A stretch of 64,000 bases of DNA from Fischerella sp. CENA71 (GTDB lineage Bacteria; Cyanobacteriota; Cyanobacteriia; Cyanobacteriales; Nostocaceae). The position numbers and the translations under genes are program-made. Shown piece after piece: positions 14,701 through 37,991 of this stretch. A model generated the notes under the pieces. The model made no database searches and was not told the DNA's origin. It worked only from the letters and a program-made list of their open reading frames with translations. Numbering within the stretch: position 1 is the stretch's first letter; each line of letters starts with the position of its first letter. The DNA lies in NCBI GenBank assembly GCA_024239075.1, contig JANBVI010000088.1, positions 186,001 to 250,000 of the forward strand, read 5' to 3'.

Positions 14701-17171
14701 AAGCATTGCAGAACGGTCAAACAGTGAAATTGCAACATGATTCTGTTTCCAATAGTGCGATCGCATTGCCACAAACTAACGGCACTAACAATACTAACGG
14801 ACACAGCAAACAACCCCAGTTGGTAGAAAACACAGTTCAAATGCTTAAAGGGGAAGTGGTAAAAAGCAACGGTAACGGTAATCCCCAATCCCTAATTCTC
14901 AATCCTCAATCCCCAATCCCTGATCCCCAATCCTCGATCCCCGTTCCCCGATCCCCAATGCAACCAGAAATCCCAGATAAACTTGTAAATTACCAAAGAA
15001 TTTTAGAAAGCTTAGAATACGTCCTGACACAGTTTCAACAAAATCAAGGCGAGAATTTACAAGTTCATTCCCACTACCTAAACCATCAGATGGAATATGC
15101 TAAAACCTTTTTCCAACTGATGCAGCAGCAGAATTCCCTGCTTGCTAACGGTAAAAATTCACCAGATGTAGCCCAGCTGAAACCAAGCATCATCGAAAGC
15201 TTAGACCGTAGCATGATGCAGTTTCACGCCCAACAAGGTGAAACCCTACGCATTCATCAACAATATCTTAAAGATCAGGTAGAATACACCAAAAACTTCT
15301 TCCAACTAGTTCAGCAAGAATATTCCCAACTCATCACCGAGGGTGGAACTACTCAACCAGTAATTTCTGCTCAGGTAAGTGTACCTGCTAAAGCTGAGAT
15401 TTCTGTTCCCCCGGTTGCCAAAATCCAAGAAAGTCAAATTCCTGCTGTTAAAGAAGACAGCCCACTTCCAGCCAGTGTCAAGATATCAGAAAGCAAGCTT
15501 GAACTTGTAACTGATACTGTTATTCAAAACGGTACAACAAACGTAAAACCAGAAACTACCCCACTTTCTTTCTCTCCCACTCCCAGCACACCGACCATCA
15601 GCGCACCACCGCAATCAGTAATTACTCAACAACCACTACCACCAGCAACATTAGCACCAACGATTGATCTATCTGAGTTAGATCAAACCCTGCTAGCCAT
15701 CACCAGTGAAAAAACTGGTTATCCTATCGAGATGTTAGAACTCGACATGGACATGGAAGCAGACTTGGGAATCGACTCGATCAAACGAGTAGAAATCATG
15801 GGTGCATTGCAAGAAAAATACCCCGACTTACCCAAGCCAAGTAATGTAGAAGAACTGGCGGAACTACGTACCATCGGTCAAATCGTCCAGTATCTACAAT
15901 CGTTAGTTTTTACCCCCGCGTTGGTAGAGGAGAAGGACAAGGGAGACACAGTGACACGGGAACACGGTGACACGGGGAATATTTTTGATAATTTCTCTCC
16001 GTCTTTGCATCTCCCCGTCTCCGCGTCCTCAGAAGCTGTACCTGAATTCAGCAACGATTCTACCGTTGTTCACGCAAGTGTTGCAGTCGCCGCCGAACCA
16101 ATCATCAGCGTTACCGAAACGGTGACTCCCACAGCAGAAGTTGACTTAAGTAACTTAGCTGAAACCTTGTTAGCTATTACTAGCGAAAAAACAGGTTATC
16201 CAGTCGAGATGCTAGAACTCGACATGGATATGGAAGCAGACTTGGGGATTGACTCGATTAAACGGGTAGAAATTATGGGGGCTTTACAAGAACAATACCC
16301 CGACTTACCGAAACCGAGTAATGTGGAAGAACTAGCAGAACTACGCACCATCGGTCAAATAGTTGAGTACCTCCAGAAACTAGCTGGGGCTGAAAAAAAA
16401 AAGCAGCAACATGAATCTGTTAACCAGCCAGATGAGTTAGTACCCAACGTCCAACGTCGTCCAGCCAAGCTGCAAATTCTCCCACCTCCTGACTTTTGGG
16501 AATTCCCCATACCAGAGGGACACATCGCCCTAATCACCGACGATGGTTCCCTCACTACTACCAAAGTTGCTGAGTTATTGAGTCAACGGGGATGGAAAGT
16601 AGTAGTCTTAAACTTACCTCCGTCCCTAGTTCCCGAAAAATCGCCCTTACCAGCAGGTGTGAATCGCGTTACCTTACAAGATTCTACTGAGGAACATCTA
16701 CAACAACAACTAGCAGCGATCGCCACTCATTACGGTAACATTGGCACATTTATTCACATTCACCCCGTCTTCCAGGCTAGTCACAATAGTAAGATTGCTT
16801 ATTTCCCAGCCGAAAAAGCGATTATTAAGCAAGTCTTCTTCATGGCGAAACACCTGAAAAAATCCCTCAATGCAGCAGCCGATCACGGACGCAGTTGTTT
16901 TTGTACCGTAGCACGTCTAGACGGGGCTTTTGGAGTTGAACACAAAGTTAACTTTGGGGCGATTGGTGCAGGTTTATTTGGATTAACCAAAACCATGATT
17001 TGGGAATGGCCAAAAGTATATTGTCGGGCAATAGACCTTAGTCCTGATCTTAGCGCCGAAACATCAGCACAACACATTTTTGCTGAACTTCACGACCCCA
17101 ATCGTTATCTTACCGAAGTAGCCTATGGTTCCCAGGGAAGAGTAACTTTGGTTAGCGTACTCGATAGTTGA
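11715..17171 (+). CDS. hglE: Heterocyst glycolipid polyketide synthase HglE (KS-AT-ACP-ACP-partial KR)
   Basis: An 1818-residue PfaA-like synthase. After a helical N-terminus, the ketosynthase spans about 50-510 with Cys252 (VDAACASS), His387 (EAHGTGT) and His427 (KSQIGH). The acyltransferase spans about 620-960 with GQGSQ and Ser724 in GHSFGE. Two nearly identical acyl carrier domains have phosphopantetheine serines at 1355 and 1514 (LGIDSIKR). Between AT and ACP1 are Asn/Pro-rich low-complexity sequence and two copies of a helical VHXXYL motif (about 1090-1210). The C-terminus (about 1580-1818) looks like the structural half of a ketoreductase; the catalytic half opens HglD. Two repeats are translated in frame (about 1056-1083 and 1405-1441). 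It starts the aglycone-building operon; synteny with hgd genes favours the heterocyst rather than a second glycolipid system. Confidence 0.9.
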   Translation: MSAHSIEIALAQLEEQINNCEKAVVRFLEVKKRMSDKSMGIEKINRKLQHNPIAIIGMASLFPQAKNLREYWQNIVNKLDCITDIPPTHWSVEDYYDPNPRTPEDKTYCKRGGFLPHVDFNPMDFGIPPNILEVTDVSQLLGLLIAKQAMEDAGYSENREFNRETVGVILGSAALKLGIPLAARLQYPIWEKALKSSGLSDEDTQKVIEKIKSAYVKWDENAFPGMLANVISGRIANRLNLGGINCTVDAACASSFAALKMAISELVEHRCDMMLTGGVDTDNSITAYISFSKTPAVTPSGVVRPFDTQSDGMMLGEGIGMVVLKRLEDAVRDNDKIYAVIKGIGTSSDGRYKSIYAPRQAGQVQALRRAYEDAGFTPETVSLIEAHGTGTMAGDPTEFGSLREFFGENSSKRHHIALGTVKSQIGHTKAAAGAASLIKTALALHHKILPATINVTEPNPKLQIKNSPFYLNTETRPWIRSEGEAPRRAGVSSFGFGGTNYHVVLEEYEGEHNQAYRLHTAPSEVVLFAQTPAELLSSCQETLAQLQSETGNKNYVELVEACKTKEIPQGAARVGFVAENSAEACKLLQISIDLLKNKPTATSWEHPQGVYYRASGMELAGKVVALFSGQGSQYLNMGRELVMNFPEMRNLYGYMDSLLCKDNLQPLSEIVFPHPVFEETEKNAQVAALQRTQYAQPAIGVLSAGMYKILQQSGFKADFVAGHSFGELTALWAAGVLSDADYCLLVKARGQAMAAPQDPNYDTGAMLAVKEDLSKVEAVLRNYPQVAIANFNSPRQVVLAGPTNAITQVKDALHKQGYAAVSLPVSAAFHTPLIAFAQKSFAIAIKNVNFQIPQIPVYTNVTGKEYPKEPAVIQKTLETHLSNSVLFKQEIENIYAAGGYCFVEFGPRNILTNLIKDILGDRPHMAIALNPSAQKNSDRSVREAAVQLRVAGMSLKNLDPYQLPPVITEAPKNKGLNVKLCGSNYVSDKTKMAFEQALQNGQTVKLQHDSVSNSAIALPQTNGTNNTNGHSKQPQLVENTVQMLKGEVVKSNGNGNPQSLILNPQSPIPDPQSSIPVPRSPMQPEIPDKLVNYQRILESLEYVLTQFQQNQGENLQVHSHYLNHQMEYAKTFFQLMQQQNSLLANGKNSPDVAQLKPSIIESLDRSMMQFHAQQGETLRIHQQYLKDQVEYTKNFFQLVQQEYSQLITEGGTTQPVISAQVSVPAKAEISVPPVAKIQESQIPAVKEDSPLPASVKISESKLELVTDTVIQNGTTNVKPETTPLSFSPTPSTPTISAPPQSVITQQPLPPATLAPTIDLSELDQTLLAITSEKTGYPIEMLELDMDMEADLGIDSIKRVEIMGALQEKYPDLPKPSNVEELAELRTIGQIVQYLQSLVFTPALVEEKDKGDTVTREHGDTGNIFDNFSPSLHLPVSASSEAVPEFSNDSTVVHASVAVAAEPIISVTETVTPTAEVDLSNLAETLLAITSEKTGYPVEMLELDMDMEADLGIDSIKRVEIMGALQEQYPDLPKPSNVEELAELRTIGQIVEYLQKLAGAEKKKQQHESVNQPDELVPNVQRRPAKLQILPPPDFWEFPIPEGHIALITDDGSLTTTKVAELLSQRGWKVVVLNLPPSLVPEKSPLPAGVNRVTLQDSTEEHLQQQLAAIATHYGNIGTFIHIHPVFQASHNSKIAYFPAEKAIIKQVFFMAKHLKKSLNAAADHGRSCFCTVARLDGAFGVEHKVNFGAIGAGLFGLTKTMIWEWPKVYCRAIDLSPDLSAETSAQHIFAELHDPNRYLTEVAYGSQGRVTLVSVLDS
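15930..16034. repeat. Palindromic repeat translated in frame within hglE
   Basis: Located in the linker between the two ACP domains. It reads GACACGGGG-rich, then GGAATATTTTTGAT, then CTCC- and GCGTC-rich sequence, encoding GDTGNIFDNFSPS and SASSEA. Copies in the same frame occur in hglC (about 21130) and in the peptidase gene (about 37830-37925). Confidence 0.8.
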
Positions 17172-17299
17172 CAAGAGGACACGGGGACGCAAAGACACAA
17201 GGACAGGGAGAGAGTTTCAGATTATTTCTCCGCGTCACTGCGTCTCCTCCTCTCCGCGTCTTTAAAAGCTACTTCCACTTCTCGTATGCGTCTGAAGAA

Positions 17300-17863
17300 A
17301 TGTCCAAGCATCAAACAATTACTTTTCTTGGTCGCGTTATTGACCAAAAAAAACAAGCCCCGATTAGTAGGGCGAAAGTTTTATTAACATATGCAGGTAA
17401 TTCAGTCATTACCTACACAGATTTGGAAGGGATATATCGATTAACAATTAACTTTAATAACAGCGATTCTTGGCAGGCACAATTATCTATTCAAGCCAAT
17501 GGCTACAAAAGTTATAACTCTTCGATAAAACTATCACCAAAACAAAAAGACCTGGGTGATGTTCGACTGGTTGAGGTTAATTCTAATTTGAATTCATCTT
17601 CTAATATTAAATCTAGTTCTACTTCTAGTTCTAGTAACAAATTAAGCTCAGTATCTACTTCATCTGCTAATAATAAATTAAGTACAAGTTCTAGTTCCAA
17701 ATCTCAAGAGAACAGTTTTGTTCCTTTACCAATAATCATAGCGGTCATGATGGTGATGTTTTTAATGATGGCGATCGCGTTGAAACCTTCTCCACAAAAA
17801 AATCCCGTTAATAGGCGCAATACACTTAGTATCTTAGTGCCTTGGTGTTTCAATATTTTTTAA
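17300..17863 (+). CDS. Small tail-anchored protein with carboxypeptidase-regulatory-like domain
   Basis: A 187-residue protein between hglE and hglD. Residues 1-90 resemble a CarboxypepD_reg-like beta-sandwich (ITFLGRVIDQKKQAPISRAK; YTDLEGIYRLTI; ANGYKSYNSSIKLSP). A Ser/Asn-rich linker follows (about 95-140), then one membrane segment near the C-terminus (PLPIIIAVMMVMFLMMAIAL). The longer reading from a TTG at 17168 overlaps the hglE stop, but its first 44 codons are a translated copy of the GACACGGGGAC repeat, so the ATG at 17300 is preferred. The last residues lie in a CTTGGTG/CACCAAG palindromic repeat (about 17832-17888), so the C-terminus may have been altered by insertion. Function unknown; it may tether the synthase to a membrane (inference). 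Confidence 0.6.
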   Translation: MSKHQTITFLGRVIDQKKQAPISRAKVLLTYAGNSVITYTDLEGIYRLTINFNNSDSWQAQLSIQANGYKSYNSSIKLSPKQKDLGDVRLVEVNSNLNSSSNIKSSSTSSSSNKLSSVSTSSANNKLSTSSSSKSQENSFVPLPIIIAVMMVMFLMMAIALKPSPQKNPVNRRNTLSILVPWCFNIF

Positions 17864-17934
17864 CCACCAAGACGCCAAGACACCAAGTATTTTCAACTTT
17901 ATTGATTGAATTTATCTCTGCAAAAGGATAAGTT

Positions 17935-19674
17935 ATGATTACAGCAACTCAGATTCGCCCTACATCTGTTTTTTTGGTCAGTGGTGGTGCTAAGGGAATT
18001 ACAGCTAAGTGTACAATTAGATTAGCGCAGCAACATCCTTGTAAGTTTATTTTATTAGGACGTTCAGAACTTTTAGAAACAGAGCCTGCTTTTGCTCAAA
18101 ATTGTTTTGATGAAGCAACATTAAAAAAACGCATCATGGAATATCTTCTTTCCACTGGAGATAAGCCCACACCTATGAGTGTGCAAAAGTTATATAATCA
18201 ACTAGCATCAAGTCGAGAAATTAAAGAAACATTAGCAGCAATTCAGCAAGCAGGTGGACAAGCCGAATATATTAGTGTAGATGTCACTAATACTTCAGCT
18301 TTAAATCAAAAACTGACTGCTACTGTTGAATGCATGGGTGAAATTACAGGTATTATTCACGGTGCTGGTAATTTAGCCGATAAATTAATTGAAAAGAAAA
18401 CAGAACAGGATTTTGAAAAAGTTTATACAGCAAAAGTTCAAGGGCTAGAAAATATTTTAGCTTGTGTCAAACCTAGTCATATTGAGCATTTAGTTTTGTT
18501 TTCTTCGGTAACTGGTTTTTACGGTAATATCGGACAATCTGATTACGCGATCGCTAACGAAATTCTCAACAAATCAGCCCATTTATTCAAACAAAAATAT
18601 CCTCAATCTCACGTTGTGGCGATCAACTGGGGAGGTTGGGATAGTGGGATGGTGACAGCAGAATTGAAAAAAGAATTTGCGCGTCGGGGTATTGATATTA
18701 TCCCAGTAGAAGCAGGGACACAAATGTTAGTCAGAGAACTGCGTAATACTAATCACAATACCACACAAGTTGTGATTGGTAGCCCCATGCCTACACCAGC
18801 TGCACCTCTAGATTCAAAACTTCGTACCTATCGCATCCGTCGCAAACTTACACTTGCAGCCAATCCCTTTTTACAGGATCATGTCATCGCTGGAAATCCT
18901 GTTTTACCAGCTACCTGTGCAGTTTCATGGATGTCCGATGTCTGTGAAAAATTATATCCAGGCTATAAAGCATTTAGTAGCACAGATTTCCGAATTTTTA
19001 AAGGAATTACCTTTAACGAAACCCTCGCAGATGAATACATTCTCGACTTACAAGAAACATCAAAAAATCTTGAAAATCACGAAGTAAATTTCCTGTGCAA
19101 AATCTGGAGTAAAAATCCCGAAGGTAAAACCATATATCACTTCAGCACACAAGTGAAACTCCTACGTGATATTCCGCCAGCGCCTATCTATGAAAAACTG
19201 AACCTGACAGAAGATAATATTATTACCACCACAGGTAAAGACTTTTATCAAACAGGAGAATCAGCATTATTTCATGGACCAGCATTTCAACAACTCAGAA
19301 GAGTCATAAATATTAACTCCGAAAAAATCACCGTCGAATGTTGTTGGCAAGAAATCGACAAAACCAAACAAGGACAATTTCCAGCATATTGGATCAATGG
19401 ATTCACAACTGATTTGAGTACCCATCCCTTGTGGATTTGGCTAAATCATTACCATCAAGAAATTTGTTTACCAGGACAACAAGAAAAATACGAGCAATTT
19501 GCCAAAACACCCTATAACCAAACCTTCTACGTCTCCTGTGAAGTCAAAAGTAAAACCCAAACAGGCGTAATTGCCGATTTCTTTGTACACGATAAACAAG
19601 GAAAAATCTACTCACAACTCCTCGGAGGTAAAGGCATTATTTTCCCAGCCAAATTAATGCTACCGAAATCCTAA
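17935..19674 (+). CDS. hglD: Heterocyst glycolipid synthase subunit HglD (ketoreductase-dehydratase)
   Basis: A 579-residue protein. Residues 10-290 are the catalytic SDR domain of a polyketide ketoreductase, with FLVSGGAKGITAKC for NADPH binding, ILLGRSE, and a catalytic Ser/Tyr region FSSVTGFYGNIGQSDYAIAN. Residues about 300-575 form a PKS-type hot-dog dehydratase; the HXXXGXXXXP motif is seen in DHVIAGNPVLPA. In PfaA-type synthases these domains follow the ACPs on one chain, whereas here they are a separate polypeptide whose N-terminus continues where HglE stops. It would reduce and dehydrate beta-keto intermediates on HglE ACPs. AAAGGAT precedes the ATG. Symbol assigned from order upstream of hglC and hglB. 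Confidence 0.82.
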   Translation: MITATQIRPTSVFLVSGGAKGITAKCTIRLAQQHPCKFILLGRSELLETEPAFAQNCFDEATLKKRIMEYLLSTGDKPTPMSVQKLYNQLASSREIKETLAAIQQAGGQAEYISVDVTNTSALNQKLTATVECMGEITGIIHGAGNLADKLIEKKTEQDFEKVYTAKVQGLENILACVKPSHIEHLVLFSSVTGFYGNIGQSDYAIANEILNKSAHLFKQKYPQSHVVAINWGGWDSGMVTAELKKEFARRGIDIIPVEAGTQMLVRELRNTNHNTTQVVIGSPMPTPAAPLDSKLRTYRIRRKLTLAANPFLQDHVIAGNPVLPATCAVSWMSDVCEKLYPGYKAFSSTDFRIFKGITFNETLADEYILDLQETSKNLENHEVNFLCKIWSKNPEGKTIYHFSTQVKLLRDIPPAPIYEKLNLTEDNIITTTGKDFYQTGESALFHGPAFQQLRRVININSEKITVECCWQEIDKTKQGQFPAYWINGFTTDLSTHPLWIWLNHYHQEICLPGQQEKYEQFAKTPYNQTFYVSCEVKSKTQTGVIADFFVHDKQGKIYSQLLGGKGIIFPAKLMLPKS

Positions 19675-19772
19675 AAACCAATTAAATATTTACTCATAAA
19701 AACTCTGCTTACCCTCTGCGCTAACCTCTGCGTACCTCTGCGTTGAAAGCATAAAGACTTAGGAGTTCCCCC

Positions 19773-22700
19773 GTGGAAAAAATCGCCATAATCGGATTCT
19801 CATGCTTATTTCCTAACGCCAAAAATCCCGAAGAATTTTGGCAAAACCTCATTCAAAAAAAAGATTCCACATCATCTTTAACCTCTCAAGAAATCGGAGT
19901 AAATCCCCAAACCTTTTACGAACCAAGTAAAGGAAGATCAGATAAAATCTACTCCCTCAAAGGTGGATTCATCCGCAATTTTAAATTTGATCCTACGGGT
20001 TATAAACTACCAGCAGAATTACTAGAAAAACTAGATAATACCTTTAAATGGTCACTGTATGTTGCTAAACAAGCTTTGCAACATAGTGGTTATTTAAATC
20101 AAGAATCTATTCTCTCTCAATGCGGAGTCATATTAGGTACACTCTCTCTCCCTACCAAAGCATCTAATCAATTATTCGCACCAGTTTATCAACAAATCCT
20201 GACACCAGCTATCAGAGAATTATTACAACAGCAAGACTTCGATTTAGCTGGTTTGAATTCATCTGAGCAAGCCTCATTTTACAATGCGATGATCTCAGGC
20301 TTACCAGCAGCAATCATCGCCCAAGCTTTCTCATTATCAAATATACATTTTTGTATCGATGCTGCCTGTTCATCACCACAATATTCTATCAAGTTGGCAT
20401 CTCATTATTTGTGGACACATAAAGCTGATTTGATGTTAGCAGGTGGTATCAGCTGTGCAGATCCGCTATTTATTAGAATGTTATTTTCTGGAATTCAAGG
20501 ATATCCTGAAAACAATGATATTAGTCGTCCTTTAGATAAATTATCGCGGGGAATGCTGACTGCGGAAGGCGTCGGGATGGTGGTACTGAAGAGATATAGT
20601 GATGCCATCAGAGATGGCGATCGCATTTATGCTACCATCACAGGCAACGGTCTTTCTAATGATGGTCGGGGTAAACACCTACTCAGTCCCAATTCCAAAG
20701 GACAAACTCTCGCTTTTGAACGCGCCTACGAAGAAGCACAGATTAATCCTAGTAATATAGATTACATGGAATGCCATGCGACTGGGACGTTGTTAGGCGA
20801 TACCACTGAATTTCAATCTATCGAAACCTTCTTCGGTAAATACCAAGCCACACCTTTACTCGGTTCTGTAAAATCTAACGTCGGTCACTTGCTGACAGCT
20901 GCTGGCAGCGTTAGCTTAATTAAAGTGCTGATGAGCATGTCTAATGGCGTGATTCCAGCCACAATCAATATTACAGAACCGATGGGGGCAGACAACAATG
21001 TTGTCTCACCGCAACGCATTGTTACCAACACCACCAATTGGCCGGGAAATAAACCTATCAAACGCGCTGCTATCAGTGCATTTGGTTTGGGCGGAACAAA
21101 TGCCCATATGATTTTAGAACAAGGAAATATAGAGGACACGGGGACACGGGGACACGGGGAGACGGAGAATATTGTTGATACATTCTCCGCATCACCGCGT
21201 CTCTCACTCTCCGCGTCTTCTTCAGAACCTCTCCACCCAGCTAAACTTGCTATTGTCGGGATGGATGCCTTTTTTGGTGGATGCGATGGTTTAGATGCTT
21301 TTGAACGCAGTATTTACGAAGGTAAACAACATTTTATTCCTCTACCCCCCCAGAGATGGTACGGAATAGAAAAGGAACCAGAGTTACTGAAAAAATACGG
21401 CTTGGCCGATGGAAAACCACCATTAGGCGCATACATTACAGATTTTGAAATTGATACAGTTTCTAGTAAAATTCCACCGAACGAACTCGAAAAACTCAAT
21501 CAACAACAATTATTATTACTGAAAGTTGCTGAACGTGCCTTAAAAGATGCAGGTATTAAAGAAGGTGCAAATGTAGCAGTAATAATTGCCGCAGAAACGG
21601 AATTTTCGGCACATCATTTACAGCAAAGATGGAATTTAGATTGGCAGATTAAGGAAGGTTTAATTGCTGGAGAAATTTCTCTGCCAACTGATAAAGTTGA
21701 TCAATTAGAAACTATCGTTAAAGATGGTATTCACCATCCCGTTGAAAGCAGCGAATACGTAAGTTATATCGCCAATATTATGGCGAGTCGTATTTCTTCA
21801 CTGTGGGATTTTACAGCTCCTGCGTTTACAATAACTGCGGGTGAAAATTCGACTTTCAAAGTATTAGAAGTCGCCCAACATTTACTTACAACTGGGGAAG
21901 CAGATGCTGTACTTGTGGGTGCAGTTGATTTAGCTGGCGGGATGGAAAATGTATTGTTGCGAAATCAAAGGACAACAATTAATTTTGGTGCAAATACCCT
22001 CAGCTATGATCAAAAAGTCAATGGCTGGATGGTTGGAGAAGGTGCAGGTGCAGTAGTTTTAAAATTGCATGAAACTGCGAAAAAAGAACGCGATCGCATT
22101 TACGCAGCTGTTGATGCGATCAGTTTTGTCCAAGATCGTCTGGGTGAGAGTAATCCTCAAGCTGTTCATCAAGTTTGTCAACAAGCTTTGTTAATGGCGG
22201 GTATCAAACCATCTGACGTCAATTATTTAGAAGTTTACGGTAGTGGTAACAATCAAGAAGATGTAGCCGAAATCACAGGTTTACTTCAGGCTTATCCAGG
22301 AAGTACAAATGATTTAAACTGTGCCATTGGCAGTGTGAAAGCTAATATCGGTCATACGTACACTGCATCGGGAATTGCTAGTTTAATTAAAACTTCCTTG
22401 TGTCTCTACTATAGATATATTCCCGGTACACCAAATTGGACTGGAGTTAAAGATCAGGGACAAGGAGGAGTAAATTCTCCTCACATTCCTTTCTACGTTG
22501 CGACAGAATCAAGACCTTGGTTTCTCGATAAAGAAGCTACAAAAAGAATTGCTGCTATCAATAGCATAGGAATAGATGGCAGTTATGCCCATGCTATTTT
22601 ATCAGAAGAACCAGAACAGCAAGAACGTAGCAGCAGATTTTTGCAGCAAACACCCTTTTATTTATTCCCGATAACTGGACGCGATCGCACTGATTTACTC

Positions 22701-24452
22701 ACTCAACTTGATGTCCTGGAAAACACCGTAACCAACGGTACTTCTCTCGCTAACGCTGCGAATCTCGCTTTTGCCAACTATAAACTAGATCCGAGTGCAA
22801 ATTACATTTTAGTAATTCTGGCACACAACCAAAACGAACTCACCAGAGAAATTACAGCCGCGAGAAAAGGTATAGATAACGCTTTTGCTAAACAAGAAGA
22901 TTGGCAAACACCACTAGGTAGTTACTTCACAGCCAAACCACTGGGTAAACGTGGGGGAGTTGCTTACGTCTATCCCGCAGCAGTCAACTCTTATCTAGGT
23001 ATTGCGCGTAACCTCTTCCGTCTATTCCCCAACATCCTCGACGACATCGCCATCAAAGAACTACAAAACCTCGTCGCCGATATCTCCCGCGTCGTCTTCC
23101 CCCGAAGTTTAAACAAACTTTCATCTCGCCAACTCGAAACCAAAGAACAACAATTTCTCGATGATCCTCTGGCAATCTTCGACGTAGACATGCTGTTTAC
23201 CAGATTCATCACCCAAATCATCCGTGATCAATTCCAAGTCAAACCCGAATTTGTCTTTGGTTACAGCTTGGGTGAAACCAGTATGATGTCTGCTATCGGT
23301 GTCTGGGATAACTTCACCCAAGGAATCCGCGCCCTCCACGCTTCCCCCCTATTCGCCGACAGATTATCCGGTGCAAAAACAGCCGTCCGTCAGTATTGGC
23401 AACTACCACCAACCCAAGATAATAACTTCTGGGCTAACTATGTTCTCATGACAACCCCATCCCAAGTCAGAGAATATCTCAAACATGAGAAGCGCGTCTT
23501 TTTAACTCAAATCAACACCCCAGAAGAAGTCGTCATCGCCGGTCAACCAGCAGCTTGTGAGAGAATCATTCAAATATTAGGCTGTAACGCCTTCCGCGCC
23601 CCCTTCGATCACGTGATCCATTGTGAGGCGATGAATTCCGAGTATAGCGAAATCGCCAGAGTCAACACCCTACCCATCCAGAAAAACCTCCCAGATGTCA
23701 CCCTCTACTCTGCTGCTGAGTATGGACCAGTGAGAATCGAGAGTGGGGCGATCGCCAACAGTATCGCCACAGGTTTATCCCAACAACTAGATTTTCCCCG
23801 CCTAGTCAACCGAGTCTACGACGATGGCGCGAGAATCTTTATCGAAACAGGTGCAGGTAACATTTGTTCACGCTGGATAGATAAAATTCTTGGCAGCAAA
23901 CAACACATTACCATATCCCTCAATCGCAGAGGTTTAGACGACCATTCTGGTATCATCAAAGCCTTAGCAAAACTCGTCAGTCACCAAGTTTCCGTTGATT
24001 TGTCGCCACTCTACACCCAAGTAACAGAAATTAGTAAAAAATCCAAACTCACCCTCAAAAAAGTCACCCTGGGTGGACAAAGCATTACCGACAAAATTTT
24101 GACGGAAGAAAACAAACAACTCTTCCGCAACATCTCCACAACTATCAAAAAATCTCAACCCATCAACCCCCCTGCGACTCAACCAGAAAAAATGCCGCTA
24201 CAAAATATCATGGATAACAGCTTAGAGCCAAAAGCAGAAGTACAATTTGTTGAGTCAACAGCAAATCCTGAGATAATTACCCAACCTATTACTCTCCTCA
24301 ATCCATCTCATTATCAACAATTGAACGCTAATAATTTCCAAGTTCATCAAACCCATGACGCTTTCTTACAATCTCGTCAAGAATTTAGCCAGCAAATCAG
24401 CGAATTGATTCAACTACAAATCGCTTGTGTGGAAAATTTGTTGAATGAGTAA
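19773..24452 (+). CDS. hglC: Heterocyst glycolipid synthase subunit HglC (KS-CLF-AT)
   Basis: A 1559-residue protein with a PfaC/PfaB-like layout. KS1 (about 1-450) has Cys199 in CIDAACSSPQ, ECHATGT and KSNVGH. A second KS-fold domain (about 490-925) lacks the nucleophile: the Cys position reads Glu691 in TAGENST, and the first His is lost in EVYGSGN. It is therefore a chain-length-factor-like domain. An acyltransferase-like domain (about 1010-1400) has Ser1165 in GYSLGE. The C-terminal 45 residues (NFQVHQTHDAFLQSRQEF) echo the helical motif seen twice in HglE. An in-frame palindromic repeat fills the KS1-CLF linker (about 454-486). The GTG start is supported by AGGAG at 19761. Confidence 0.87.
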   Translation: MEKIAIIGFSCLFPNAKNPEEFWQNLIQKKDSTSSLTSQEIGVNPQTFYEPSKGRSDKIYSLKGGFIRNFKFDPTGYKLPAELLEKLDNTFKWSLYVAKQALQHSGYLNQESILSQCGVILGTLSLPTKASNQLFAPVYQQILTPAIRELLQQQDFDLAGLNSSEQASFYNAMISGLPAAIIAQAFSLSNIHFCIDAACSSPQYSIKLASHYLWTHKADLMLAGGISCADPLFIRMLFSGIQGYPENNDISRPLDKLSRGMLTAEGVGMVVLKRYSDAIRDGDRIYATITGNGLSNDGRGKHLLSPNSKGQTLAFERAYEEAQINPSNIDYMECHATGTLLGDTTEFQSIETFFGKYQATPLLGSVKSNVGHLLTAAGSVSLIKVLMSMSNGVIPATINITEPMGADNNVVSPQRIVTNTTNWPGNKPIKRAAISAFGLGGTNAHMILEQGNIEDTGTRGHGETENIVDTFSASPRLSLSASSSEPLHPAKLAIVGMDAFFGGCDGLDAFERSIYEGKQHFIPLPPQRWYGIEKEPELLKKYGLADGKPPLGAYITDFEIDTVSSKIPPNELEKLNQQQLLLLKVAERALKDAGIKEGANVAVIIAAETEFSAHHLQQRWNLDWQIKEGLIAGEISLPTDKVDQLETIVKDGIHHPVESSEYVSYIANIMASRISSLWDFTAPAFTITAGENSTFKVLEVAQHLLTTGEADAVLVGAVDLAGGMENVLLRNQRTTINFGANTLSYDQKVNGWMVGEGAGAVVLKLHETAKKERDRIYAAVDAISFVQDRLGESNPQAVHQVCQQALLMAGIKPSDVNYLEVYGSGNNQEDVAEITGLLQAYPGSTNDLNCAIGSVKANIGHTYTASGIASLIKTSLCLYYRYIPGTPNWTGVKDQGQGGVNSPHIPFYVATESRPWFLDKEATKRIAAINSIGIDGSYAHAILSEEPEQQERSSRFLQQTPFYLFPITGRDRTDLLTQLDVLENTVTNGTSLANAANLAFANYKLDPSANYILVILAHNQNELTREITAARKGIDNAFAKQEDWQTPLGSYFTAKPLGKRGGVAYVYPAAVNSYLGIARNLFRLFPNILDDIAIKELQNLVADISRVVFPRSLNKLSSRQLETKEQQFLDDPLAIFDVDMLFTRFITQIIRDQFQVKPEFVFGYSLGETSMMSAIGVWDNFTQGIRALHASPLFADRLSGAKTAVRQYWQLPPTQDNNFWANYVLMTTPSQVREYLKHEKRVFLTQINTPEEVVIAGQPAACERIIQILGCNAFRAPFDHVIHCEAMNSEYSEIARVNTLPIQKNLPDVTLYSAAEYGPVRIESGAIANSIATGLSQQLDFPRLVNRVYDDGARIFIETGAGNICSRWIDKILGSKQHITISLNRRGLDDHSGIIKALAKLVSHQVSVDLSPLYTQVTEISKKSKLTLKKVTLGGQSITDKILTEENKQLFRNISTTIKKSQPINPPATQPEKMPLQNIMDNSLEPKAEVQFVESTANPEIITQPITLLNPSHYQQLNANNFQVHQTHDAFLQSRQEFSQQISELIQLQIACVENLLNE
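21130..21232. repeat. Palindromic repeat translated in frame within hglC
   Basis: It encodes DTGTRGHGETENI, then a FSASPRL-like stretch and SASSSE in the linker between the first and second ketosynthase-like domains. The DNA has GACACGGGG units, a central GGAGAATATT, then ATTCTCCGCATCACCGCG, so the two halves can pair. Confidence 0.82.
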
Positions 24453-30399: not shown

Positions 30400-30429
30400 C
30401 CCACACTTACAAATGAGTGCAAGTGTGGG
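30400..30429. terminator. Stem-loop between convergent genes
   Basis: CCCACACTT and AAGTGTGGG pair perfectly (9 bp, 12-base loop) in the 103-bp gap between the stops of two convergent genes. There is no long T-run on either side, so it may be a weak bidirectional terminator or a stabilising hairpin. Confidence 0.45.
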
Positions 30430-30455
30430 AGCATGTTACTCTTCCATATCAGGAA

Positions 30456-31187: not shown

Positions 31188-31406
31188 ATGCATACATTAT
31201 TGAACAAACTTTTAGCTTATGTGCTGATCGCTACCCTAGTAGGCTGTGCAACTCAACAAAGTGAGCAAACACAGCAAACACAGCAAACACAGCAAACACA
31301 AATTGAGCAGTCAAGTTCTAGTGGAGGACAGCAGCAGTGTTCGCGTATTGAGGTACGCCAAAACAATGGTAAAACCGAGGTCAAGCGCTCAAACGACTGT
31401 TATTAG
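31188..31406 (+). CDS. Small Gln/Thr-rich lipoprotein
   Basis: A 72-residue protein with a lipoprotein signal: hydrophobic stretch LAYVLIATLVGC with a lipobox LVGC (Cys at about residue 20). The mature part begins ATQQSEQ and contains a tandem TQQ repeat (ACACAGCAA units at DNA level), then a Ser/Gly/Gln linker and a short basic tail with two Cys. It should be anchored in a membrane after processing. No family recognised. The DNA repeat could vary in copy number between strains. Confidence 0.6.
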   Translation: MHTLLNKLLAYVLIATLVGCATQQSEQTQQTQQTQQTQIEQSSSSGGQQQCSRIEVRQNNGKTEVKRSNDCY

Positions 31407-31486
31407 AGCGATCCATTATCGACTCACCCCCGCATCTACTTATGTAAAAAGTATGTTATTCCAATGCCAACACAAGTATGTTTTGA

Positions 31487-32143: not shown

Positions 32144-32180
32144 GATGATAACGACTGAATACTCTTAACAATTATTTATT

Positions 32181-32963
32181 TTAACTACGTCGATTTACGA
32201 GTGTGGTACTAGCTTGATCAACAGGCATCAAAATGACTTGATTAATATTGACATGGGCTGGTCGGGTGGCGCAAAAAAAGACCACATCAGCAACATCCTC
32301 ACCAGTCAGGGGGGTGAGACCTTGGTAAACTTTCTCAGCCCGTTGTGTGTCACCGTGAAACCGCACTTCGCTAAATTCTGTTTCTACCATACCGGGGTCA
32401 ACAGAAGTGACTTTTACCGAAGTTCCTAATAAATCTTGTTTTAAGCCTTCAGAAATTGCTCTGACTGCTGCTTTTGTACCACAATAAACATTACCACCGG
32501 GGTAAGTTTGATAGCCAGCTATCGAACCGATATTGATCACATGACCGCGATCGCGACTCACCATTCCAGGGACAACATAGCGACTGAGGTAGAGTAAACC
32601 TTTGATATTGGTATCAATCATTTCTTCCCAATCCTCAAATTTACCCTCATGGAGTTTGTCTAAACCGCGACTTAAACCAGCATTATTGATCAGAATATCA
32701 ATTTCTGACCAAGCACTAGGGAGACTAGATAGAGCAGATTCAACAGCAGAGCGATCGCGTACATCTAACTGTAATAAATGTATCTGACCAGACTTGCCAT
32801 GATCAGTCTCTACAAGACTATCTGCTAATTCCTGCAAACGTTCTTGACGTCGCGCCGCTAAAATCAATTTTGCGCCAGCACTAGCAAACACTTTGGCACA
32901 AGCAGCGCCAATACCGCTACTCGCACCAGTAATTAGAACAATTTGATTTTGTAGAGAAAGCAT
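32181..32963 (-). CDS. Classical short-chain dehydrogenase/reductase (YdfG-like)
   Basis: A 260-residue classical SDR. Visible motifs are the cofactor site ITGASSGIGAACAKVFA, NNAGLSRG, the catalytic Ser in NIGSIAG, YXXXK in VYCGTKAAV, and VDPGMVETEFSEVRF, which is characteristic of YdfG-like 3-hydroxy acid dehydrogenases. It is upstream of the DUF1295-like gene in a two-gene unit. I compared it with HetN, the SDR expected near hglB: it lacks the RGSGR pentapeptide that HetN carries, and is separated from the hgl genes by several others, so it is not called hetN. Confidence 0.82.
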   Translation of the reverse strand: MLSLQNQIVLITGASSGIGAACAKVFASAGAKLILAARRQERLQELADSLVETDHGKSGQIHLLQLDVRDRSAVESALSSLPSAWSEIDILINNAGLSRGLDKLHEGKFEDWEEMIDTNIKGLLYLSRYVVPGMVSRDRGHVINIGSIAGYQTYPGGNVYCGTKAAVRAISEGLKQDLLGTSVKVTSVDPGMVETEFSEVRFHGDTQRAEKVYQGLTPLTGEDVADVVFFCATRPAHVNINQVILMPVDQASTTLVNRRS

Positions 32964-32965
32964 TT

Positions 32966-33070
32966 TTGGTCAAGAGTCAATGGTCAAGAGTCAATGGTCA
33001 AGGGTCAATAGTCAGGGGTCAATAGTCAAGGGTCAATATAAAATTACCTGGAAAATTGACCCTTGACTCT
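32966..33070. repeat. GTCAATRGTCAARRG tandem repeat with inverted copy
   Basis: About five degenerate 14-bp units of TCAATGGTCAAGAG type run from 32966 to about 33040. A reverse-complement unit (TTGACCCTTGACTC) follows at about 33056, so the whole can fold back. It separates the SDR gene from the next minus-strand gene. This is typical short tandem repeat DNA of Nostocales. Confidence 0.7.
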
Positions 33071-33085
33071 GGACAAATGACTAAA

Positions 33086-33898
33086 TTATTTTGTCACCAC
33101 TTGCATTCGTTGAGTGATCATTGTCATACCATCTCCGCGCATGATCACTGCCGAAACCCATTGACTACCAGGAGTCAAGGGTGCTTTACCAACTTTGAAA
33201 ATACCACCAGATGAAAGTAACTCCAAATCTACAGGTGTAGGACTGAGATATTTGTTTGCTTTGATTGGTTCTTCCAAAGCTGTTCCTAAAATATAATCTT
33301 CGCCTAGAGGTTCTTGGACAATCGCATCAAAGCTGTATTGCTGACCAACTTTAACCTGTTGTGGCAATTTAAAATCAATTTGTGGTGGTTGACTACCAGC
33401 AGTCACTTGAGTACGTTCTGACAAAATATCTTGACGAACGACTTTTCCCCCAGAAATTTGTTGACGTGATGTAATTGTGGCTGATAAAGCCATATTGTTA
33501 TTGTTCGGGGAAGGTAAGCCAGTTATTTTCGTGACCGTATCAGCGACGATGACATTACCTTGAGGTTTCCAAGATTGCAGCTGCGTACTGTATTTGAGTT
33601 GGGGATATTGTTTCCACAATGTATTTAAAGCTTGTTCCATGCTTTGATAGTTTAATCCATCCCCATGCGTAAAGTTGGGACTGTAGAACTGCATGACTCC
33701 TTTGACATTACGCTGGTTTGCCGCTGTATCAATTTGCGTCAATAGGTTATTGAGTTCAGGGGGTGCGTTCGGTGATGTGCTAGCTTGAGCGCATTTCCAA
33801 CCAGCAGTAAAACCAAGAGTAAGTAGTAACAAAAGTATCCAACGGTTGGATGAGAAGTGTGATTGGCGTTTAAATAGTAGGATAATCAGTCTACGCAT
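33086..33898 (-). CDS. Secreted or membrane-anchored protein with NTF2-like domain
   Basis: A 270-residue protein. A hydrophobic segment near the N-terminus (about 20-38, WILLLLLTLGFTAGW) serves as signal or anchor. Residues about 48-165 resemble an NTF2/SnoaL-like fold (NLLTQIDTAANQRNVKGVMQFYSPNF, then YQSMEQALNTLWKQYPQL). The C-terminal part (about 175-270) is a beta-rich region with GQQYSFDAIVQEP. No catalytic residues can be named. It is a conserved cyanobacterial type of protein by appearance; function unknown. It diverges from murG. Confidence 0.6.
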   Translation of the reverse strand: MRRLIILLFKRQSHFSSNRWILLLLLTLGFTAGWKCAQASTSPNAPPELNNLLTQIDTAANQRNVKGVMQFYSPNFTHGDGLNYQSMEQALNTLWKQYPQLKYSTQLQSWKPQGNVIVADTVTKITGLPSPNNNNMALSATITSRQQISGGKVVRQDILSERTQVTAGSQPPQIDFKLPQQVKVGQQYSFDAIVQEPLGEDYILGTALEEPIKANKYLSPTPVDLELLSSGGIFKVGKAPLTPGSQWVSAVIMRGDGMTMITQRMQVVTK

Positions 33899-34056
33899 TG
33901 GTATTAAATTGGTAGTTTGACTACAAAAGAGATTCCCGCTTTCAAATCAAATCCATAGAGTAAAGCTGTTGTAGATTAAGTTCCGAAACAGTTTACAACA
34001 AGGTAGGGAAATTGTTTTATCTTAGTGAAACTAAGCGTTGACATGGTAGTGGGTAA

Positions 34057-35130
34057 ATGGCAGACGCACCAATAAAATTATTGATAGCAGCAAGTGGAAC
34101 TGGCGGACACTTATTTCCAGCGATCGCATTAGCGCAAGAATTGCCAGATTATCAAATCGAATGGTTGGGTGTACCCAATCGGTTAGAAACTCAACTTGTC
34201 CCCCAACAGTATAAATTGAATACTATTTCTGTTGAAGGATTTCAAAAAGGTTTTGGCATCTCATCGCTACTGACTGTAAGTAAACTGATCAGTTCCATTC
34301 TTAAAGTTAGGAAAATTTTACAAAATGGTCAATTTCAGGGAGTATTTACCACAGGAGGATATATTGCTGGGCCAGCAGTAATTGCAGCGCGATCGCTAGG
34401 TATACCCGTAATACTCCACGAATCAAATGCTTTCCCAGGAAAAGTCACGCGATTTTTTGGGCCTTGGTGTAATGCAGTCGCATTAGGATTTGAAGTTGCC
34501 GCCAAATATTTAGCCCGTGCCAAGACGATTTACACTAGTACTCCGGTACGTGCAGAATTTTTCAAACCGGGGATCGCCGCATCATTAGATTTAGGTATTC
34601 CGGAAAATGTACCTGTGATTGTCGTCTTTGGTGGTAGTCAAGGCGCAGTCGCTATTAACAAGTTGGTGCGTGAGTGTGCAACAGCTTGGTTTGATGTTGG
34701 CGCTTGGGTTGTACATTTGACAGGCGATAAAGATCCGGAAGCGGAAAGTTTAAAACATCCACAGTATATATCTCTGCCTTTTTATAACAACATGGCAGCA
34801 TTACTGCAACGCGCAAATTTAGCCATTAGTCGTTCTGGTGCAGGTAGTCTAACAGAATTAGCGGTGTGTGGCACGCCTGCAATTTTAATTCCTTATCCGT
34901 TTGCAGCAGAAGATCATCAAACCTATAACGCCAAAGTATTTACCTCAGTTGGTGCAGCATTGATGTTTCAGCAAACAGAATTGACACTTGAGAAATTGCA
35001 AACAGAAATTTTGCACCTGTTACAGTCACCACAACAGTTAAAAGCGATGGGGGAAAAAGCTAGAACTATTGCACCTGCTGATAGTGCCGAGAAATTAGCA
35101 CAGTTAGTTCGGGAAATGGTAGAAAAATAG
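34057..35130 (+). CDS. murG: UDP-N-acetylglucosamine transferase MurG
   Basis: A 357-residue GT28 glycosyltransferase that adds GlcNAc to undecaprenyl-PP-MurNAc-pentapeptide (lipid I to lipid II) at the inner face of the cytoplasmic membrane. Motifs are the N-terminal glycine loop ASGTGGHLFPAIALA, TTGGYIAGPAV, HESNAFPGKVTR, the second glycine loop FGGSQGAVAIN, and the donor site SRSGAGSLTELAVCGTPA with LIPYPFAAEDHQTYNA. Length is normal for the family. It diverges from the NTF2-like gene, is not in a dcw cluster (usual for cyanobacteria), and is followed by a small exported protein. Confidence 0.95.
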   Translation: MADAPIKLLIAASGTGGHLFPAIALAQELPDYQIEWLGVPNRLETQLVPQQYKLNTISVEGFQKGFGISSLLTVSKLISSILKVRKILQNGQFQGVFTTGGYIAGPAVIAARSLGIPVILHESNAFPGKVTRFFGPWCNAVALGFEVAAKYLARAKTIYTSTPVRAEFFKPGIAASLDLGIPENVPVIVVFGGSQGAVAINKLVRECATAWFDVGAWVVHLTGDKDPEAESLKHPQYISLPFYNNMAALLQRANLAISRSGAGSLTELAVCGTPAILIPYPFAAEDHQTYNAKVFTSVGAALMFQQTELTLEKLQTEILHLLQSPQQLKAMGEKARTIAPADSAEKLAQLVREMVEK

Positions 35131-35184
35131 AGGAAAATAGTTATGTTACGAATTAAAACCAAATTTTAACAAGAGCAAACAATT

Positions 35185-35649
35185 GTGCTTATGGGTAGCT
35201 TCATCAAGCGATCGCTATGTTATCCTGCCACAGCTTCCTTACTCATCGGGTTAACGTGTCACTCAACTATTGCTCAAAGTCACAGTAAATATTTTCAGAC
35301 TAAACATGTTCAGATTGAGCAAAAATCTTCTCAAAATATCAAGATTACTCAGGCTACCCAAGCACTTGGTGAAAAAACAGCCCTCAACTTAGTTTGGAAA
35401 CTACCACAAGTACAACGTAAAGCCAGAGAAATCGAAAAACTTTCAAAGGGAAAAATACGTGTTGCAGCAAAGGTTGATAGTTCTCCAACTCCAGAAACAC
35501 CTTACTACACAGTGCAAATCTATGAAAATCATATAGATTACATCGACACAATTTATTGGTTTCGTGTCTTGAATCCAAGTGGTGCTATCCAAGTTCTAGA
35601 TATCATTCAGAACGAATATGTATCTTTAGAAGCATGGAAACAAAATTAA
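35185..35649 (+). CDS. Hypothetical exported protein
   Basis: A 154-residue protein with a signal peptide (basic start FIKRSLCYP, hydrophobic core ASLLIGLTC, cleavage near TIAQS). The mature part (about 35-150) is mixed alpha/beta with a helix NLVWKLPQVQRKAREIEKLS and strands YYTVQIYENHIDYIDTIYWF. No enzyme motif is seen. A GTG start with AAGAG upstream and an ATG two codons later are both possible. It follows murG by 54 bp and may share its transcript. Confidence 0.6.
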   Translation: MLMGSFIKRSLCYPATASLLIGLTCHSTIAQSHSKYFQTKHVQIEQKSSQNIKITQATQALGEKTALNLVWKLPQVQRKAREIEKLSKGKIRVAAKVDSSPTPETPYYTVQIYENHIDYIDTIYWFRVLNPSGAIQVLDIIQNEYVSLEAWKQN

Positions 35650-35690
35650 TTCAGGGAACAGGGAAGCATAATAACTGATAACTGAAGTAA

Positions 35691-35951
35691 ATGTCTCAAA
35701 CAAAACCTATTAGTCCTTGGAAATTCAAGCCTTGGTGGTGTCAGCCCTGGTCTATACTGCTCACAGGCATAACCTTGATTAGTGGTAGTTGGATAATATT
35801 TAAAATTGTTTGGCTAACAGTTTTGATTGCGATTCCTGTACTTACATGGATGGGCTTTTTCTTATTAATCTGGCCCCCATTAATGATTCGCAGTGGTATT
35901 TTAGAATCTTATCAATTATCAATAGATGAGAATGCAGATAAAAATAGTTAA
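35691..35951 (+). CDS. Small two-span membrane protein (DUF6737-like)
   Basis: An 86-residue protein beginning MSQTKPISPWKFKPWWCQPW, followed by two closely spaced hydrophobic segments (about 22-42 and 45-66) and a short polar tail. The aromatic N-terminal block resembles a small conserved cyanobacterial family I recall as DUF6737. It lies 41 bp after the preceding gene on the same strand. Function unknown; probably inner or thylakoid membrane. Confidence 0.6.
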   Translation: MSQTKPISPWKFKPWWCQPWSILLTGITLISGSWIIFKIVWLTVLIAIPVLTWMGFFLLIWPPLMIRSGILESYQLSIDENADKNS

Positions 35952-36026
35952 TAGTTAATAGTTAATTGTTGATGGTTGTAAGCTGGTAGTTTTTCCAAAC
36001 AAGCAACAATCAACAACCAACAACAA

Positions 36027-36938
36027 TTAATTCTGTATTCGAGTCATTTCAAACAATTGTTGAGCATTTCTTCCTAAGAAACCATCAAACAACACTGACT
36101 TTCCTGGTTCTTCTTCCACTATATAGCGCTGGGCAATTTCGTAGTAAGCATAAGTCCAGGGAATCTGAATTTCTGTATCAGTCAACTCATCTAATACTGT
36201 TACTATCTCTGTTACTGCTTGTGTTGCTGTTTGTCGTAAGCCACAGCTAACATCCCCTTCAATTTCTGCTTTCATCGGTACGCCTAGCTTTGCTAAACCA
36301 CGGGCTGTAGCATCAATATCTGGATACTCTGGGGTATTCTGGCGGTTAACATAGCCTGTAAAATGGTTGACTGCATAACCATGTAATAATACCCAAGCAC
36401 CGTATTGACTAACTTTATTCACTTCTTCCACTACAGAACGTCGGGGAGGTTGCCAAGGGCAGGTAAAAATTTTCAGAAGTTCCTTCGCAAGACGTTCGGT
36501 ATCATATTTAAAGCTATTAATAATAGCAGAATAACTTAGTAAATTGACACCACTTACCGTTTGTTGAATGAGTTGAATAGTTTTCGGTGGTAACTCATCC
36601 ACAATCAACTCACTAATAAACAGCTTGGGTAAATTGAATTCTACTTGTTGAGGATGACGATAATGACGGGCATAGAGATGAGTTTCACTAAATGTATACT
36701 CTCCAGCTGCTTCATAACCTAAAGCTTCGGCGAATTTCCCCAAATACTCAATCCCCAAGTTGACTTTACCTTGTGGACTATCCACAGCCATACGTAAAGA
36801 TCGAAAAGCAATGTGATCATTAGCAACAGTACCACCCGCTTTAGTAATCATTTGTGCATAGGTGTGGGCATACCTTACCCTGCTGCTATAATCTCGCCAA
36901 AGAAGTTCCCATAGTTGACAGGCAATTTTGGGGTTCAT
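36027..36938 (-). CDS. DUF1338 protein, 2-oxoadipate dioxygenase/decarboxylase-like
   Basis: A 303-residue protein of the DUF1338 family, a VOC-fold non-haem iron enzyme. Family members (the HglS type, unrelated to heterocyst hgl) convert 2-oxoadipate to 2-hydroxyglutarate with O2 in lysine breakdown. Seen here: NDHIAFRSL (His of the metal site), IEYLGKFAEALGYEAAGEYTF, HLYARHYRH, HGYAVNHFTGYVNR (second His region) and a C-terminal Glu-rich segment YAYYEIAQRYIVEEEPGK. Length fits the family. It stands alone on the minus strand with no other lysine-degradation genes near, so its natural substrate is uncertain. Confidence 0.78.
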   Translation of the reverse strand: MNPKIACQLWELLWRDYSSRVRYAHTYAQMITKAGGTVANDHIAFRSLRMAVDSPQGKVNLGIEYLGKFAEALGYEAAGEYTFSETHLYARHYRHPQQVEFNLPKLFISELIVDELPPKTIQLIQQTVSGVNLLSYSAIINSFKYDTERLAKELLKIFTCPWQPPRRSVVEEVNKVSQYGAWVLLHGYAVNHFTGYVNRQNTPEYPDIDATARGLAKLGVPMKAEIEGDVSCGLRQTATQAVTEIVTVLDELTDTEIQIPWTYAYYEIAQRYIVEEEPGKSVLFDGFLGRNAQQLFEMTRIQN

Positions 36939-37025
36939 ATGAATTTGAGTGAACGGCTTATGTTGATATTAACCACAAACACACTCACACAGAGAAAACA
37001 AACAAATAACAACTTGATAAAGTTC

Positions 37026-37991
37026 TCAATATTTTCTTGTGTTTGTGAAACTTCTTGAACTTGCTGTATGTAAAGCCCATCCTAAACTTGTAGGCTGTTC
37101 ATAAACTCGCTTCAGTGTGTTCACATCTCTTGCAGAAATGGGCGGCGGGTTGCGAACTTGCGAAAAGTATAATGCGTCACTTGCCACTTGGCTATGTCCC
37201 CATATACCCAAGGCATGTCCTAGTTCATGGCGAGCGGCAGCCAAAAGATATATACCTGTTTGACTCGGACTGAGCAGGATACTAAATTTATGGTATAAAA
37301 TATCTTGTTTTTTATATACTTCGTAAATAGTTTGAGCGGAACGCGCACGGGAGATTTTGCTATTGGGTAATTTTTGGAGTGGTGGGTTTTTCCTGATAAT
37401 CGTAATATCGGCTAATTTCTGGTTTTCGACTACTTGTAAAGGTAAATAAGCATTCCACTCTTGTACAGCCTGCAAGACATTATTCACCCATGCTTGGGCT
37501 TTTTGAGCATCTATTGCTTGGGGTGCTTCTATGTAAACTTTAACGGGAAACTGTGACCAAACTAAATAACCGACTTGCGTCGGTACAACTTGAGAAAAGT
37601 AGTCACCGCTATTTGTCTGATCTTGCCACTGCGCCAGTGTGGGCGGTAGGGGATGTGGTTGTGGGGGAGGTAGGGGGGTGTCAGAAGTGGAGGGGGAAAT
37701 GGCAAAAGACTGCACGTTAGTTAAGATCACGAGCAGTCCAGTAATAATAGCCAATCCTGTAAATACCAGCAAACGCCGCCAAATAAAACTTTTTGAGATA
37801 TTGGTGGTTGGGGAGCGAGCATTGGGAGAAGATGCGGTGACGCGGAGAGTAGGTGACGCGGAGAATCTACCAAAAATATTCTCTGTGTCCCCATGTCCCC
37901 GTGTCCCCGTGTCCCCCATGTCCTCCTCATCCTCCCTGTCTTCTCCCCACTTCTCACCCTCTCCATGTTTACTTAGGGAGCCAACCAGCAC
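37026..37991 (-). CDS. Metzincin-like zinc metallopeptidase with repeat-derived N-terminus
   Basis: A 321-residue protein with one membrane segment (about 72-95, LLVFTGLAIITGLLVILTNV), a Pro-rich spacer (PLPPPQPHPLPPT) and a C-terminal peptidase domain. It carries the zinc motif HELGHALGIWGHS (HEXXHXXGXXGH) followed by SDALYF, as in matrixin-like enzymes. The peptidase domain should lie on the periplasmic side. The first about 58 residues are largely a translated copy of the palindromic repeat (MGDTGTRGHGDTENIF), and the ORF start overlaps the 3' end of secG by 23 bp. The original start may have been near the membrane segment. Confidence 0.72.
   Translation of the reverse strand: MLVGSLSKHGEGEKWGEDREDEEDMGDTGTRGHGDTENIFGRFSASPTLRVTASSPNARSPTTNISKSFIWRRLLVFTGLAIITGLLVILTNVQSFAISPSTSDTPLPPPQPHPLPPTLAQWQDQTNSGDYFSQVVPTQVGYLVWSQFPVKVYIEAPQAIDAQKAQAWVNNVLQAVQEWNAYLPLQVVENQKLADITIIRKNPPLQKLPNSKISRARSAQTIYEVYKKQDILYHKFSILLSPSQTGIYLLAAARHELGHALGIWGHSQVASDALYFSQVRNPPPISARDVNTLKRVYEQPTSLGWALHTASSRSFTNTRKY
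37830..37925. repeat. Palindromic repeat translated in frame within the peptidase gene
   Basis: Read on the minus strand it gives GACACGGGG units, then GAGAATATTTTTGG, then ATTCTCCGCGTCACC. It encodes DTGTRGHGDTENIFGRFSAS, in the same reading frame as the copies in hglE and hglC. Confidence 0.82.

Follow-up and report, generated by a model that had tools for sequence, protein, structure and literature searches.

A dispersed palindromic repeat of Fischerella sp. CENA71 found in frame within genes, mostly in one codon register

The stretch of DNA analysed here, hereafter the window, spans 64 kb of contig C88 (C88:186001-250000) of the Fischerella sp. CENA71 genome (G000; 7.47 Mb in 95 contigs) and carries an hglE-type polyketide synthase (PKS) ORF, an hglC-type ORF, an ORF with a Peptidase_M10 domain and five copies of a palindromic element (Table 1). 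All the copies named in an earlier sequence-only reading of this DNA were recovered, including the degenerate one, by a model (R1) built from 29 copies, four of which come from the window; the two related copies it had placed outside genes, at about 8825-8891 and 17168-17290, correspond to 8808-8893 and 17175-17265, and both are intergenic. Admitting up to three mismatches, the 19-mer TTCTCCGCGTCACCGCGTC matches five times in the window: the metzincin copy has two of these matches, the copies in hglE, in hglC and at 17175 have one each and the 8808 copy has none. No match was obtained in 100 dinucleotide shuffles at the same threshold.

Table 1. Copies of the palindromic element in the window and the ORFs that host, or may host, them
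Feature	Position (nt)	Strand	R1 score (bits)	Remarks
Element in hglE-type PKS ORF	15942..16032	+	82.8	between two PP-binding (ACP) domains
Element in hglC-type ORF	21132..21222	+	110.3	after first ketoacyl-synthase C-terminal region
Element between secG and metzincin (Peptidase_M10) domain	37826..37916	-	95.6	open with the metzincin
Element, intergenic, after hglE	17175..17265	+	88.6	opens a probably spurious TTG ORF
Element, intergenic, degenerate	8808..8893	ambiguous	40.9 (-); 36.0 (+)	
Host ORF, hglE-type PKS	11715..17171	+		KS, AT, two ACP; ORF and Pfam domains; name from the sequence-only reading
Host ORF, hglC-type	19773..24452	+		two ketoacyl-synthase regions; ORF and Pfam domains; name from the sequence-only reading
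Peptidase_M10 ORF, possibly hosting a copy at its N-terminus	37026..37991	-		ORF and Pfam

The hglE and hglC copies stand within long ORFs having Pfam domains on both sides, and one register is used in both, reading GDTVTREHGDTGNIFDNFSPSLHLPVSASS in hglE and EDTGTRGHGETENIVDTFSASPRLSLSASSS in hglC; judged from the sequence, these two can be taken as secure in-protein copies. The metzincin ORF reads GDTGTRGHGDTENIFGRFSASPTLRVTASSP in the same register, but the translation of this copy appears doubtful and it was rejected as a secure host: this copy is situated between secG and the protease and did not pass the in-gene test described below; Fischerella PCC 9431 has a copy at this place whose core is read in another register, and in the remaining relatives shown stops or different repeats are found instead of the element. 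The original proposal of one frame shared by three unrelated proteins holds, therefore, for the hglE and hglC copies, and these two hosts are not wholly unrelated, since ketoacyl-synthase domains are common to both, although the insert sites differ. As for the ORF said to open at 17168, a TTG start does lead through the intergenic copy, but the ORF is probably spurious and the downstream ATG at 17300 is the likelier start. A second, unrelated repeat, an array of AATCCCC heptamers, lies in frame within hglE at 14880-14959 of the window (NPQSLILNPQSPIPDPQSSIP).

Orientation and alignment of 29 copies revealed a dispersed repeat family in the CENA71 genome, consisting of an imperfect palindrome of about 90 bp with octamer arms. 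The 5' arm is made of octamers (GGACACGG)n, the core, of about 20 bp, occurs as the variants AATATTTTTGATAGATT, AATACAGATGAAATACT and TTATTAACAATTT, and the 3' arm is CTCCGCGTCACCGCGTC followed, after about 8 nt, by TCCGCGTCTTCT. Two copies (C64:208491 and C6:62000) have the core variant TTATTAACAATTT, one base shorter, and still keep the FSASP register, because the octamer arm is readable in any frame. A covariance model run on the whole genome, with 150 scored out of 3117 first-look candidates, gave at least 150 matching rows at E <= 0.1 (150/150 of those scored, with some places counted on both strands). Profile search of 2,654,256 fetched bases, made up of three whole contigs (1,448,225 bases) and of further, biased stretches chosen around known matches, returned 358 raw matches, reduced to 190 non-overlapping ones; leaving out 16 without core coverage, 174 copies remained, of which 170 were testable (one of the other four had no landmark and three lay too close to where a fetched stretch stops). 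The three whole contigs hold 54 core-covering copies, 21 of them in genes, which by extrapolation would correspond roughly to 280 copies in the genome, about 110 in genes.

As the sequence-only reading had proposed, the DNA halves can pair: the arms are complementary except at regular A.C positions (G.U on the other strand), and the hairpin potential of the 29 copies folded is strong (mean of -39.2 kcal/mol for one strand and of -40.6 kcal/mol for the other). A better folding of one RNA strand was considered and dropped, the difference being small (18/29 copies). The RNAalifold consensus is weak (11 pairs, -2.87 kcal/mol), with two pairs showing change on both sides and a covariation energy of zero, and no compensatory pairing between the arms was found over 170 copies (paired fraction 0.680 observed vs 0.683 shuffled); the non-gene copies alone show a small excess, 0.797 vs 0.786 (sd 0.004), if the G.U of the antisense strand is counted. 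The absent covariation speaks against selection on the hairpin of each copy, and structure was rejected as the selected feature. No Rfam family matched at the gathering threshold within the 64-kb window.

A copy was assigned to a gene when the coding score, from a three-periodic Markov model trained on 1016 long ORFs of the same genome, exceeded 3 in windows of 60-240 nt on each side and one frame was open throughout. Positions for the frame calls were profile-based, a fuzzy landmark being unsuitable as octamers align out of step. By this rule 78 of the 170 testable copies lie in genes, distributed in 54 host clusters (2.65 Mb fetched of the 7.47-Mb genome), the largest of which counts 19 members and includes several sensor kinases; earlier counts of 68/170 and 83/170 are superseded, five copies having been removed, to give 78, when a single frame had to stay open across 240 nt to either side.

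Frames within genes are far from random. Seventy-two of the 78 in-gene copies are in one codon register against 46% expected from the frames open in the 92 non-gene copies (P about 6e-18), and the same register is found in 18/21 in-gene copies of the three whole contigs. This is register 2, the TTC TCC GCG TCA frame of the sequence-only reading, and comprises 56 copies in sense (+,2) and 16 in its mirror image (-,2), while (-,1), (+,1) and (-,0) account for 3, 2 and 1 copies, respectively. A filter by stop codons alone, with copies surviving in whichever frame is open, would agree with sense register 0 being mostly closed (open in 14/92 non-gene copies). Sense register 1, however, is open outside genes nearly as often as sense register 2 (57/92 and 62/92) and is used in 2/78 genes only, so that the bias is not accounted for by stop codons alone; counting one copy per host cluster, 48/54 are still in the shared register (P about 6e-11), and we regard this explanation as very improbable. 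We infer, instead, that selection acting on the peptide would cause the register bias.

Translation of the non-gene consensus suggests why register 2 is used: it reads DTGTRGHGDTENIFDRFSASPRLPVTASS in sense and EDAVTGRRGDAENLSKIFSVSPCPRVPVS in antisense, while stops occur in three of the other four registers and the remaining one, sense register 1, has a hydrophobic run, IFLI. Within the shared register sense is preferred over antisense (56 vs 16, P about 5e-5). Orientation is weaker evidence than register, because non-gene copies also lean to the strand of the upstream neighbour (17 same and 5 opposite when only the left gene is present, 11 to 5 between codirectional genes, 7 same and 12 opposite when only the right gene is present), and peptide selection may account for only a part of the preference in orientation. 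Figures by codon position (in genes, third 280/1155, second 226/1141, first 267/1148; elsewhere, third 342/1730, second 377/1698, first 387/1719) show a slight bias, to which little weight is given.

Pfam scans assigned a family to 55 of 60 candidate host proteins (one of the 60, a ribosomal S2 ORF, was later dropped). Going by these families, the hosts are presumably PurL, LysA, gamma-glutamyltransferase (GGT), two RecJ-like proteins, RecO, PriA, DnaX, a DALR-domain protein, an ACT-domain aspartokinase, MutS2 (with two copies), MiaA, RsmB, two P-type ATPases, CobN/BchH types, CoxB, a penicillin-binding protein, POR, a penicillin amidase and several histidine kinases, among others. The location in inter-domain linkers, previously proposed, applies to hglE, with its copy between two ACP domains, but not in general, since many inserts lie inside Pfam domains, namely in GGT, LysA, PHO4, AMP-binding, HATPase_c (two kinases) and the HAD domain of both P-type ATPases. 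Compared with solved relatives, the insert replaces 2-7 residues in four enzymes, standing where the chain of the relative runs from 153 to 160 (LysA), 437 to 440 (PurL), 359 to 362 (GGT) and 86 to 94 (MiaA); for the LD-carboxypeptidase the site of the insert is less clear, as the stretches matched to the relative overlap. These sites would be surface loops, and the host proteins are predicted to be made with the insert. Other translated repeats were also present among the 1262 open frames of at least 250 aa in the 2.65 Mb, namely the GGQ type (5), the NPQSP type (3) and the KIQNPKS type (1); some of the five GGQ-type repeats are arms of the palindromic element.

Congeners were compared at 18 of the 78 host sites, which gave 65 site-species pairs (25 + 40); the frame is kept in 63 of these pairs, as judged from the offset between upstream and downstream matches. 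Both exceptions concern one glycosyltransferase (in G002 and G003); in G003 (L242) the frame break coincides with the peptide VSYTHLDVYKRQ, which we take to be a translated sequencing-adapter artefact. Alignment of the hosts with orthologues lacking the insert, as the sequence-only reading had proposed, showed by inspection at least one congener without the element at 14/18 sites; in the remaining four cases (hglE, the hosts in C55 and at C27:260655 and the C74 kinase, the last with one relative only) the congeners seen hold the element or remnants of it, hglE having versions of it in all four. Presence and absence vary between species at one and the same place. The hglC site holds the element in G000, a native linker of short length in G001 and G002, and another repeat in G003 and G004. 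The CoxB site is empty in G004, filled in G003 and partly so in G002. GGT has the element where three congeners share a conserved native segment. In G003 hglC is found as two separate matches (L175/L176; query residues 1-898 and 895-1559), either by a split gene, a frameshift or an assembly error.

Plain vertical inheritance of old low-complexity linkers could account for hglE being filled in four congeners, and for the hglC, PurL, BchH-type, POR and two kinase sites being filled also in other genera (see below). As a sole explanation it is, however, extremely unlikely, given the DNA-level kinship of copies between unrelated genes and the congeners without the element in spite of an upstream flank identity above 80%, mostly above 90%; linkers kept by distant orthologues without such kinship, the pattern that would have spoken against the original proposal, are not what was found. 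Inserts are also less constrained than their flanks: at eight chosen sites shared by G000 and G004, omega is 0.51 in the insert vs 0.11 in the flanks, so that the inserts appear loosely constrained. A peptide, or an RNA or DNA hairpin, kept for its benefit to the hosts would be in line with the strong hairpin potential and with FSASP..SAS, a part of the peptide recurrent in most of the in-gene copies listed; on the contrary, the loose constraint, the empty congener sites, the many functions of the 54 host clusters and the absence of compensatory changes between the arms make it very improbable, and the element would be selfish rather than useful.

Within the family, at least 30 of the 100 genomes scanned, the CENA71 genome itself and three congeners among them, match at E <= 1e-8, in at least 20 of 56 genera and very unevenly; at most 43 candidates were scored per genome, under stricter filters. 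The twenty best-scoring copies listed outside the genus, from eight genomes of seven genera, picked by their score to the model of CENA71 copies, were analysed: ten are in genes, all ten in the shared register (nine in (+,2) and one in (-,2)). Seven of these ten agree with a CENA71 copy both in host and in position within it, namely in hglC (one genome), PurL, a BchH-type chelatase, POR and, for three of them, two histidine kinases, and copies are not all independent events, because some sites are common to several genera. Hot loops, old shared copies or transfer could each underlie these shared sites.

With considerable confidence, we interpret the element as a dispersed Nostocales palindrome that spreads by a putative copying step, and whose in-gene copies survive where the frame and one register are kept with little harm. 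The element would arrive at many places of the genome, and the copies surviving in genes would be those that keep the frame, are read in one register and stand at sites of little harm. The product of the favoured register would be a mostly stop-free, hydrophilic peptide rich in Gly, Asp, Ser and Arg (..GDTENIFDRFSASPRLPVTASS..), which would be similar in both orientations, because the DNA is palindromic, and small changes in length would be absorbed, because the octamer arm is readable in all three frames. The outcome would be a large set of proteins with lineage-specific inserts that drift, shrink, grow or give way to other repeats.

A serious rival to transposition is that the loops already held short G-rich seeds, from which palindromes grow by slippage and gene conversion, frame and site being inherited. 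This would explain why the same loops in congeners hold other repeats (GGQGGQ.., SPIPDPQSP.., IQNPKS-like) as well as short or minimal versions. It would also agree with the GGT insert, which shows 0 differences between two species (L183 and G000 C53:47825-47915) while the flanks differ at 17/83 synonymous sites, an identity that suggests recent exchange, or possibly repeated insertion. No obvious seed is seen, however, at GGT in G001-G003, at hglC in G001 and G002 or at CoxB in G004, and the core sequence common to unrelated hosts still calls for a copying step between loci; we consider seed growth possible, though less likely than not. Regarding spread by copying, no clean insertion boundary or target duplication was found at the seven sites compared at the DNA level, several of which look like replacement of the native linker. 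REP repeats are linked to RAYT transposases; a search of the CENA71 genome for Y1_Tnp (PF01797) gave two matches only, in frames of 138 and 145 aa, neither of RAYT size, which sets the element apart from REP/RAYT systems and gives no support to a Y1 transposase as the mover. Two copies (C27:201302 and C27:429421, the latter inside a CobB/CobQ-type gene) lie within 2 kb of Y1_Tnp genes.

Among known repeats, STRR heptamer repeats and small dispersed repeats (SDR) occur in cyanobacteria. The element shares with these, and with GGGNATC repeats, G-rich tandem units in heterocystous cyanobacteria, and the AATCCCC heptamer array lies in the very hglE gene that carries it; it differs from all three by its composite build, a palindrome around a core, and by its in-frame location within genes. 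GGGNATC G4 repeats are described, in the part of the source available, as over-represented in non-coding regions (PMC4692102). As in MITEs, inverted repeats are present, but a clean duplication was not seen at the seven sites, where some copies replace native sequence. REPs are short palindromes, some of them inside ORFs in several species according to the section available (PMC3733652, section 15); they measure 20-40 bp and bear GTAG/CGTC tags, unlike the present element of about 90 bp. Perfect inverted repeats are embedded in protein genes of Nematomorpha mitochondria, and the available part of that paper makes no mention of a dispersed family with a set register (PMC6649704).

The closest likeness, already pointed out by the sequence-only reading and borne out by the coding and intergenic tallies, the frame and strand counts and the orthologues without insert, is with Rickettsia palindromic elements, described in the parts of the sources available as palindromes, some 100-150 bp long, that are read in frame within unrelated proteins presumed to be functional (PMC10969869, PMC3733652). 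Common to both are a palindrome able to form a stem-loop, an in-frame location in many unrelated ORFs as well as in spacers (here 78/170 in genes, in 54 clusters) and the existence of orthologues without the insert. The cyanobacterial element is set apart by the different phylum, the octamer-periodic arms, the alternation of different repeats at one loop between species and its 78 in-gene copies in 2.65 Mb, partly chosen around copies. The comparison supports an element working like a coding palindrome of the Rickettsia type, as a likeness in behaviour and with no claim of descent. No report of this family was found among the literature matches listed, and it may have been published earlier.

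As far as the available parts of the sources go, descriptions of frequent in-frame insertion of palindromes mainly concern Rickettsia, and the intragenic REPs of other organisms are scattered cases (PMC10969869, PMC3733652). The present element extends in-frame palindromes to a phylum that is distant and free-living, where scores of genes, core enzymes among them, carry it. More tentatively, and as a view we would not yet hold as probable, palindromic repeats may be a continuing source of new disordered loops in true-branching cyanobacteria and some relatives, affecting perhaps a hundred or more proteins per genome, core enzymes included; unrelated families would compete and replace each other in frame in hot loops, the leading family having a sequence tuned to give a readable register tolerated in either orientation. 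As close relatives show the empty, filled and replaced states of one site, how a non-coding repeat so often becomes protein harmlessly is made testable. Finally, such low-complexity stretches should not be read as conserved functional linkers.
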